From: Roseimaritima multifibrata
GTDB lineage: Bacteria > Planctomycetota > Planctomycetia > Pirellulales > Pirellulaceae
Direction of reading: 5' to 3'
Length of the DNA stretch: 64,000 bases
NCBI RefSeq assembly: GCF_007741495.1
Contig: NZ_CP036262.1
Location: 5,518,001-5,582,000 of the forward strand
Of the stretch, positions 22,726-25,783 are shown one piece after another. The translations under genes were made by a program, and so were the position numbers. The notes under the pieces are model-generated. The model was given only the letters and a program-made list of their open reading frames with translations, searched no databases and had not been told where the DNA came from. Within the stretch, counting starts at the first letter, position 1. Every line of letters begins with the position of its first letter.

Positions 22726-23604
22726 GTGGTCAACGTGCAAGAAGCCATTCAAAAAGCGAATACGTTGATCGAAGCGATGGGCTGGATCCGTCGCTTTCGA
22801 GGCAAAACGACCGTCATCAAGCTGGGCGGAAGCTTGCTTGAAAACGAGATCGCGTTGCAACACATCCTAGTCGACGTCATCTTCATGGAAACCGTTGGGA
22901 TGCGTCCGGTGATCGTCCATGGCGGTGGCAAAGCGATTACGGCGGCGCTGGAAAAACAGGGAATTCAGCCGCAATTTGTGCAAGGCCGCCGAGTCACCGA
23001 CGCTGCGACGCGGGACGTCGTCCGGACCGTTCTAGCAGGCGAATTGAACGAATACGTTACCCAGCAAATCGAATATTTGGGCGGACGCGGTATGAACCTT
23101 TCGGTCCATACGACAAACGTCCTGCATGGCAAACGCCTAATGCTGGACGATGAAGCAGGCGATTTAGGGTTCGTGGGTGAAGTGACTCGAGTCGATCGCC
23201 AAGTCATCGATGGGCTCTCCTATACCAACCAAGTCCCTGTCATTCCATCGATGTGTGTCGACGAAAACGACGGCGAACATCTGAATGTCAACGCGGATAC
23301 CGCAGCGATGGCGGTCGCTCAGGCACTGGGAGCCGAAAAATTAATTTTCCTTAGCGACGTCAACGGCGTCCGGCGTGAAAAAGATAATCCCGATTCGATT
23401 ATCAACTCATTGACCGCTGAGGAAGCTAGGCAACTGATCAAGGATGGTGCGATCGAAGGGGGCATGATCCCCAAAGTCGAAGCGTGCCTAGCCACACTCC
23501 AACGCGGGGTAGGCAAAGTGCATATCATTGATGGCAGCCTCAGACATTCGCTCTTGCTGGAAATTTATACGACCAGCGGAGTTGGCACCCAGTTGGTTCC
23601 TTAA
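22726..23604 (+). CDS. argB: Acetylglutamate kinase
   Basis: A protein of 292 residues. It phosphorylates N-acetylglutamate in arginine synthesis. The start is GTG (22726; a second GTG at 22735 is possible) because no ATG precedes the conserved core. [13 protein letters not shown] is the Lys-containing nucleotide loop, [10 protein letters not shown] binds substrate, and [20 protein letters not shown] and [16 protein letters not shown] are late catalytic and regulatory segments. It heads a plus-strand arginine cluster with a degenerate argD-like gene and argF. Confidence 0.95.
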
Positions 23605-23725: not shown

Positions 23726-24736
23726 ATGGTTGCTTCAGAATCTGACCGATCTTCGCGGGAACTGGCACAGGCCTACGAGAGTGAACTGCTGGCCAGAACC
23801 GGCGGGAACCATGTGGTGTTCACCCCCTGCCGGGAAATGGCCATCGAATGGGCGATTGCTGCAGTCCGCCTCCGCTCGGCCGGCCAAAAATTCAAAATCA
23901 TTACCTTCGTAGGGAATGAACTGGGGCAGACGCTTGCCTGTCATTCCGCGTCGGGATTTCCTGAATCCCAAGCCGACCTGGGGCCGCTGGTAGCCGGGTT
24001 CGTTCATTGCCCATGGGGCGACGCGTCTGCAGTCCGCGAAGCAATTGACGATCAGACCGCGGCGATCTTGATCCAGCCGATCCAAACGGCCAATGGCTTG
24101 CAGATGGCATCGACAGAATTCCTCCAAGAACTGCGCGAGATCGCCGACACAAACGGATTGTGGCTATTGAGCGATGAGAGCTCATTTCCATGGGGCGTCA
24201 GCGGAGCTCTCGATAGCCAGTCCTCATTTGGATTTGAACCACATGCAAGGATTCTGGCAGAAGGGCTTGCTGGCGAATTCCCTCTAGGAGTTGTGATCTG
24301 GCAGGACCAACTGCCGGATGCTTTGCAAACGCATCCCCTGCTGCAAACCCTGCCGGTCGCCGCGACCATCGCGACCGCAGGACAAACCGTTCTGAAAGAT
24401 TTGAATGAGGAATCTTTACAGTCCGTTCAAGCGGTCGCAGCAATGTGCGAGCGAGCTTTGATTTCGCTGGTCGACGACTTTGAATTCGTCAAAGAAATTC
24501 GCCAACGAGGGATCCTGTTCGCCGTCGAAATGGACATTCCTGTCGAACCGCTTGTCGCCGAACTGAGCCAGCACGGCGAAGCGTTTCGAACCGCCGGTTC
24601 GCACACGCTCCGCATCCAACCTCCCTTTCAGATGACTTCCGAAGACCTGGAAAACTTGGTCGCGGATCTTCATCAAGTCCTACAGTCTGTCGAAAGAGCG
24701 GCTGATCCGACAGAGGAACCGGTCGCGGGACCTTAA
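23726..24736 (+). CDS. Degenerate ArgD-like aminotransferase lacking the PLP lysine
   Basis: A protein of 336 residues, between argB and argF where argD is expected. It aligns along its length to class-III acetylornithine aminotransferases but has lost the catalytic motifs. FKIITFVGNELGQT replaces the usual GFHGRT region, ILIQPIQTANG replaces EPIQGEGG, SDESSFPWGVSG replaces DEVQxGxGRTG, and ILAEGLAGEFPLG replaces the AKxLGGGxPIG loop. The Schiff-base Lys is therefore Glu179 (GAA at 24260). The N-terminal domain is also shorter by several tens of residues. The frame is open throughout, with no stop or frameshift. It is either a pseudoenzyme under new selection or a young pseudogene. It probably cannot catalyse transamination. 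Confidence 0.8.
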   Translation: MVASESDRSSRELAQAYESELLARTGGNHVVFTPCREMAIEWAIAAVRLRSAGQKFKIITFVGNELGQTLACHSASGFPESQADLGPLVAGFVHCPWGDASAVREAIDDQTAAILIQPIQTANGLQMASTEFLQELREIADTNGLWLLSDESSFPWGVSGALDSQSSFGFEPHARILAEGLAGEFPLGVVIWQDQLPDALQTHPLLQTLPVAATIATAGQTVLKDLNEESLQSVQAVAAMCERALISLVDDFEFVKEIRQRGILFAVEMDIPVEPLVAELSQHGEAFRTAGSHTLRIQPPFQMTSEDLENLVADLHQVLQSVERAADPTEEPVAGP

Positions 24737-24817
24737 ATCGCATATGCTATCTGTTCGCGACCAGTGACCGCGGACCTTCACTGTCATCCTGTATCTACCT
24801 GGATTCCGAATCGACCC

Positions 24818-25783
24818 ATGCGACACTTGCTGACCCTATTTGACTTGACACCCGCCGAAGTTCGTTCGATCCTGGCGACCGCAGTCCATCTGAAAAGCTT
24901 ACTTGCCCAAGGAGAACGTCCTCCGATCCTTGCCGGGCAGACACTAGGCTTATTGTTTGAAAAACCAAGCCTCCGCACCCGCGTCAGTTTTGAAGCGGGA
25001 ATCAACCAACTGGGTGGCGGAAGTTTGTTCCTTGGTGAAGACGTCGGCTGGGGCAAACGGGAATCACCTGCCGATTTCACTCGCGTCCTCGGCCAGTTCC
25101 TCGATGGAGTTGTATGCCGAGCGAAATCTCACTCACGTGTCGAAGAGCTTGCTCGGTATGACGCGATGCCGGTCATCAATGGCCTGACCGACCTCAGCCA
25201 CCCCTGCCAAGCGTTGGCCGATATTTTGACGGTGGGAGAAGTCTTCAGCCAGTTGCCTGACAACCAATTTGATCTCGCCAGTCTGGCGGGTCGCGAAGTC
25301 CTGTTTGTCGGGGATGGCAATAATGTCGCCCGTTCACTCGCCTTGATCTGTGCGATCCTGGACATGCCCTTCACGCTCGCCTGTCCCAATGGATACGCCA
25401 TCGACGACATCTGGATCGAACGGATCTCCAAAGCCTACCCCAAGGCAAAACTAAACCGGGTAGAACGTCCGGAAGATGCGATCGGCAGTGCCGATGTAAT
25501 CTATACCGACGTCTGGACAAGCATGGGGCAGGAAGCCGAAGCGGCCGAACGCCGACAGATATTTGCACCTTATCGAATCGACGAAAAATTGCTGGCAGCG
25601 GCTCCCAAGACAGCCTGTGTGCTGCACTGTTTACCGGCCATTCGCGGTGAAGAAATCACGCAAGAAGTGATCGATGGCGATCAGAGCCAGATCATTCGTC
25701 AAGCCGGCAATCGCATGCATGCGCAAAAAGGCTTGCTCGTTTGGTTGATGGCCCCTGAATGGGTCGAAGCAAACATTAGCTAG
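24818..25783 (+). CDS. argF: Ornithine carbamoyltransferase
   Basis: A protein of 321 residues. It transfers the carbamoyl group to ornithine to give citrulline. ATG at 24818 ([15 protein letters not shown]) fits the family N-terminus; an upstream frame extension was rejected. The carbamoyl-phosphate loop is [13 protein letters not shown], with Leu where many homologues have Thr in [18 protein letters not shown] and the ornithine-binding cysteine motif [12 protein letters not shown] are intact. It is the last gene of the arg cluster and converges with the GGDEF gene across a palindromic repeat. Confidence 0.95.

Follow-up and report, generated by a model that had tools for sequence, protein, structure and literature searches.

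LCB1 (SPTLC1) is the non-catalytic partner of LCB2 in serine palmitoyltransferase; it is a pseudoenzyme of the PLP-dependent fold type I, in which the lysine is absent and which is kept by selection, and its active partner is proven. The protein described here, encoded in the window (the whole 64,000-nt stretch of Roseimaritima multifibrata DNA that was analysed), resembles LCB1 in being a lysine-less relative of a PLP enzyme kept by selection, but differs in that a distant transaminase, unlinked to its gene, appears to carry out the ArgD step. With ArgD (TIGR00707; Aminotran_3, PF00202) it shares common descent, the slot between argB and argF, the predicted fold, and the aspartate at N1 of PLP; unlike ArgD, it has no Schiff-base lysine, a changed PLP-phosphate loop, a short N-terminus, and a model score far under the cut-off. 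The third system of relevance is AstC (TIGR03246), to which the candidate for the ArgD step, here called P7, is to be compared; P7 is like AstC in standing beside AstA, AstD and AstB in relatives and in keeping the catalytic residues, but unlike it in its score against the AstC model (91.3 bits, cut-off 609.95; no equivalog model matched) and in standing alone in R. multifibrata. In excerpts of PMC3590144, AstC and ArgD of E. coli are said to be functionally interchangeable, and the PLP phosphate is described as bound by Gly105, Ala106 and Thr281 of AstC, N1 by Asp223, and the substrate carboxylate by Arg141, with Lys252 forming the Schiff base; the equivalence of these residues to the ArgD columns used below rests on motif alignment. 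A literature search of openly accessible papers found neither an ArgD pseudoenzyme nor a replacement of ArgD reported for planctomycetes.

A lysine-less ArgD between argB and argF

The gene, its neighbours and the positions discussed below are as follows.

22726 to 23604, strand +: argB, upstream neighbour, conserved in the slot
23726 to 24736, strand +: lysine-less ArgD homologue (pseudoenzyme), 336 aa, assigned from its open frame, Aminotran_3 and ArgD models, same-slot orthologues and the predicted ArgD fold
23834 to 23836, strand +: Glu37, in the former PLP-phosphate loop (Ala or Thr in intact ArgD); 26 of the 28 lysine-less proteins have an acid here
23918 to 23920, strand +: Glu65, in place of the former ring-stacking Phe (Phe in 31 of 31 intact ArgDs); 26 of the 28 lysine-less proteins have an acid here
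24173 to 24178, strand +: Asp150-Glu151, the retained PLP-N1 aspartate pair; Asp invariant in the 28 lysine-less and the 31 intact proteins
24260 to 24262, strand +: Glu179, codon GAA, at the position of the Schiff-base lysine (from the sequence and alignment column 257)
24764 to 25783, strand +: argF, downstream neighbour, conserved in the slot

The frame begins with ATG and is free of stops over 336 aa. Its product matches a single Pfam family, Aminotran_3 (126.2 bits, cut-off 30.5), and among NCBIfam models those for ArgD come out on top, though far under the cut-off (TIGR00707, 135.7 vs 410.05 bits); a sequence search of the PDB likewise places it as an ArgD homologue. An ArgD-derived gene between argB and argF is what the first-pass annotation, made from the sequence alone, had reported, and these matches together with the two neighbours bear this out. 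The protein is an ArgD homologue with Glu179 in the place of the Schiff-base residue: the column holds lysine in 31 of 31 aligned intact ArgDs and in none of the 28 lysine-less proteins, and a misread lysine is ruled out by the agreement of 28 slots. The Ser-Gly-Ala/Thr of the PLP-phosphate loop has become Cys-Arg-Glu, and the altered motifs DESSFPWGVSG, QPIQTANG and GNELGQT are present as first quoted. The view that every signature is altered thus stands for the lysine and these motifs, but not for Asp150-Glu151, of which Asp150 is the PLP-N1 aspartate, nor for Gly67 and Thr69, all of which are retained. Likewise, it is true that GAA is one base from AAA, but a recent single-base loss of the lysine is not the history, since relatives carry Ala, Gly, Ser or Gln there. 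The reported shortening of the N-terminus is also real, as position 78 of the ArgD profile aligns with residue 21, which means that some 55–60 residues are missing, and the codon just before the ATG is a stop. By the residues checked, the protein cannot function as a PLP transaminase. A scan for promoters and terminators gave nothing above chance.

The ArgD fold is predicted to be kept. A first structure model reached a pLDDT of 93.2, and its top structural matches in the PDB are acetylornithine aminotransferases (2ord, Z 38.2); as this model leaned on an alignment of 33 rows of which 24 are intact ArgDs, a second one was built from nine lysine-less rows only, with a pLDDT of 81.9.

Occurrence and descent

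The argD place was read in 70 genomes, 30 of them found by matches to the window protein and 40 fetched via argB; close genera were preferred in the sampling, hence the proportions are not a census. It holds an intact ArgD in 31 genomes, a lysine-less protein in 28, and nothing in 11, where the argB and argF matches lie 20–172 bases apart. Both argB and argF flank 69 of the 70 places; in one genome (G045) an intact ArgD is found with neither gene on its short stretch. The 28 lysine-less proteins come from nine genus codes of the Pirellulaceae (g1, g12, g14, g78, g82, g83, g84, g88, and g89), and their Schiff-base lysine is replaced by Ala (21), Gly (3), Ser (2), Glu (1), or Gln (1). Of 80 named loci, 40 were examined and gave 8 lysine-less proteins, 29 with lysine, and 3 that were unreadable. 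In genus g88, argB and argF are adjacent and the slot is empty in five of six genomes examined; over evolution, then, the lysine-less protein is dispensable.

In a tree of the slot proteins, the 28 lysine-less sequences form one clade (SH-aLRT 100, stem length 1.4) next to Candidatus Laterigemmans (G148), which has an intact ArgD. AU tests do not reject a clade of Roseimaritima and Laterigemmans (p 0.49 for argB plus argF, 0.43 for the slot), nor do they reject one clade of all lysine-less and g88 rows (p 0.46); with neither topology rejected, a single loss of the lysine and two separate losses are both possible. Gly155, His172, Pro264, and Gln377, which the four Roseimaritima proteins have in common with most of the remaining lysine-less ones and which G148 lacks, favour a single loss.

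Selection and rate of change

The frame is open in 28 of 28 lysine-less genes, while of 600 neutral simulations of the window gene 5.5% still had an open frame at a divergence of 0.1 changes per site, and none had one once it reached 0.25. Of 12 lysine-less pairs, one was saturated; the other 11 gave dN/dS values of 0.083–0.381, obtained from slot frames cut stop to stop that may include untranslated codons, against 0.012–0.084 for argB in these 11 pairs. In three slot pairs dS is above 2 and the ratio unreliable, among them the window's own pair (G000/G002; dN/dS 0.25, dS 2.0). The argF ratios for G203/G221 and G183/G184 took impossible values and are left out. A catalytic residue lost in 28 orthologues, with dN/dS in this range, is the mark of a pseudoenzyme, and the sequences indicate that the lysine-less ArgDs are under purifying selection, looser than before. 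The first-pass annotation had suspected that selection kept the frame open after catalysis was lost, and had proposed sister species and dN/dS as checks: the three other genomes of the genus are without the lysine too, and dN/dS is well below 1, not neutral. Orthologues and dN/dS together rule out a young pseudogene. Where argB identity is 0.70–0.75, slot identity averages 0.69 between intact ArgDs (114 pairs) and 0.28 between lysine-less ones (121 pairs); such faster change also fits slow decay.

The altered pocket and the acidic tails

Several residues absent from intact ArgD are common in the lysine-less proteins, namely Gly155 (27 of 28), His172 (26 of 28), and Gln377 (24 of 28). In 24 of 28, an acid occupies both the PLP-phosphate loop and the place of the ring-stacking Phe. 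With acids at the phosphate and ring sites, the N1 aspartate kept and the lysine gone, the pocket of an anionic cofactor could now hold a basic amino acid. It is possible, if only tentatively so, that the rebuilt acidic pocket of the remnant accepts a ligand or a partner protein, by which the remnant would tune arginine synthesis. A narrower version is quite unlikely as a whole: the dead transaminase would sense arginine or ornithine on behalf of the arginine operon, reporting to ArgB, ArgF, or P7, and long acidic tails found in some genera would serve as its docking arms.

Strongly acidic tails, with net charges from -43 to -127, are present in 12 of 28 lysine-less proteins and in none of 31 intact ones (lowest charge -13); seven of the 12 carry the tail at the N-terminus and five, of genus g83, at the C-terminus, and the window copy has none. 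Tail lengths are approximate, as the start codons of the relatives are uncertain. Examples are the following.

L008, 802 to 1300: acidic tail
L016, 859 to 1240: acidic tail
L165, 3′ part of the slot frame: acidic tail

A candidate for the ArgD step

The genome of R. multifibrata, searched as one contig of 7,216,590 bases, has five places for class III transaminases, that is, BioA, HemL, a domain fused to a polyketide synthase, P7, and the window gene; the fused domain lies inside a long polyketide-synthase-like frame (L003:31-2835). The first-pass annotation had concluded that transamination would need another ArgD. This expectation was not borne out: none was found in the own genome, and the ArgD model, run over 52 genomes, found none in any of the 39 whose slot is lysine-less or empty; ArgD exceeded the cut-off in 13 of 52, exactly those with an intact ArgD. 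ArgJ is over its cut-off in 52 of 52 and ArgC in 50 of 52 (none in G181, partial in G003). The persistence of both indicates that N-acetylornithine is still needed and, for these two steps, which were the ones examined, contradicts a loss of the arginine route. In R. multifibrata argC and argJ lie far apart (G000, C1:1341352 and C1:3813786), and they are adjacent in some relatives with an intact ArgD, e.g., G021 and G007. The best candidate for the missing activity is the AST-linked class III transaminase.

Outside the window, G000 C1:7022713-7024131 (L222:6711-8132), strand -: P7, class III transaminase (omega-transaminase), from the search of the own genome

In 24 P7 proteins, read at 17 active-site positions, the Schiff-base lysine, the N1 aspartate, the Ser-Gly and Thr of the phosphate site and the substrate arginine are present in 24 of 24. 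P7 is encoded in 38 of 39 argD-deficient genomes (it was not found in G003, which is 82% complete), including 11 of 11 with an empty slot, and in 8 of 31 with an intact ArgD. It is also present in three genomes that are probably ArgD-less (G015, G030, and G031), classed as argD-deficient by weak matches to the window protein only and not by TIGR00707: in G030 argB and argF are adjacent, in G015 the contig ends after argB, and G031 has a distant argB only. Two incomplete genomes with neither argB nor P7 (G027, 78%, and G036, 72% complete) were left uncounted. In G097 and G031 only distant relatives of argB occur (L215-L218; 25–31% identity), and another arginine route may operate there.

In each of the eight genomes where P7 occurs together with an intact ArgD, it adjoins AstA. 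Among the genomes with both P7 and AstA, the two are neighbours in 20 of 28; in G021 the operon order is M20 hydrolase, P7, AstA, AstD, AstB. This neighbourhood in all eight intact genomes and the G021 operon indicate that P7 holds the AstC place. Of the 22 intact genomes of the family, 8 encode P7 together with AstA and the other 14 encode neither, a match that rules out a P7 unrelated to AST; within one genus (g24, intact ArgD), G065 and G075 have both and G026 has neither. The 42 argD-deficient genomes (the 39 and the three probable ones) include 21 without AstA, and P7 is kept in 21 of 21. R. multifibrata is one of these; its P7 stands outside any AST operon and AstA is absent. At least eight changes of AstA are counted among those rows of the tree that bear P7; the states cluster strongly along the tree, and paired independent contrasts had no statistical power, with 1–2 usable pairs.

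The M20-type hydrolase (NF005602) that precedes P7 in AST operons (L231:4380-5624, G021) perhaps has the AstE role; in G002 such a hydrolase is beside P7 too (L234:3653-4894), with AstA far away. In G065, which has an intact ArgD, AstA is split over two frames (G065:C1:8394213-8396610) and P7 is matched only to residue 345, so that the AST operon may be decaying there.

Proposed history and alternatives

The preferred reading, at a probability of about 0.72, is that the window protein is a long-lived pseudoenzyme left after the AST-linked catabolic transaminase P7 took over the ArgD step. The window gene would be the vertical descendant of the argD that most of the relatives examined carry between argB and argF; P7, in the succinylornithine-transaminase place of the AST operon, would have been able to make N-acetylornithine as well, and this activity would have freed ArgD from its step. 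In some lineages argD vanished, and in at least nine genera ArgD lost the lysine and the PLP site and stayed as a non-catalytic protein under purifying selection. The simplest reading of P7 itself is that it gained a second, biosynthetic duty, in line with the interchangeability of AstC and ArgD in E. coli. An anabolic enzyme appears to have been displaced by a catabolic relative, and a single bacterial family displays all states, from ArgD without P7, via both, to lysine-less ArgD with P7 and P7 without ArgD. Replacement by P7 would supply the step missing from the arginine pathway of Rhodopirellula-type planctomycetes; annotation as argD by position or homology would be wrong in these planctomycetes, and the pseudoenzyme family with its rebuilt pocket presumably has a new role that is open to experiment.

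Somewhat unlikely is that P7 is an AST enzyme only and that another transaminase, of class I/II or other, performs the ArgD step. P7 does match no equivalog model, BioA, HemL and the polyketide-synthase-fused domain are encoded in the genome, and the search covered class III only; yet P7 without AstA occurs only in argD-deficient genomes (21 of 21, vs 0 of 14 AstA-less intact ones), and excerpts of PMC3590144 state that AstC can replace ArgD in E. coli. A slowly dying pseudogene, relaxed and without a role, its frame open by chance or for the translation of argF, is unlikely. It would account for the slot identity of 0.28 vs 0.69 at equal argB distance, the absence from five of six g88 genomes and the truncated N-terminus of the window copy; all 28 frames are open, however, dN/dS is 0.08–0.38, neutral simulation loses the frame early, and new residues are common across genera.

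As for what the remnant does, a role in the arginine operon as a ligand binder or a protein partner ranks first, ahead of slow decay, a subunit of a P7 heteromer, and new chemistry. That the window protein is the non-catalytic subunit of such a heteromer, as LCB1 is for LCB2, is very doubtful. Class III transaminases form dimers whose active site lies where the two subunits meet (AstC, excerpts of PMC3590144) and the fold is predicted to be intact, but P7 is present in all 11 empty-slot genomes and hence does not need a partner of the window type; moreover, the N-terminal part is missing from the window copy and the two genes are unlinked. Highly improbable is that the protein is still an enzyme whose old cleft has taken up a new chemistry independent of PLP: for all the group-specific acids at two pocket positions, His172 and the invariant N1 aspartate, no known chemistry fits, and pocket residues differ even within Roseimaritima, where column 143 is Tyr, Asp, or Glu.
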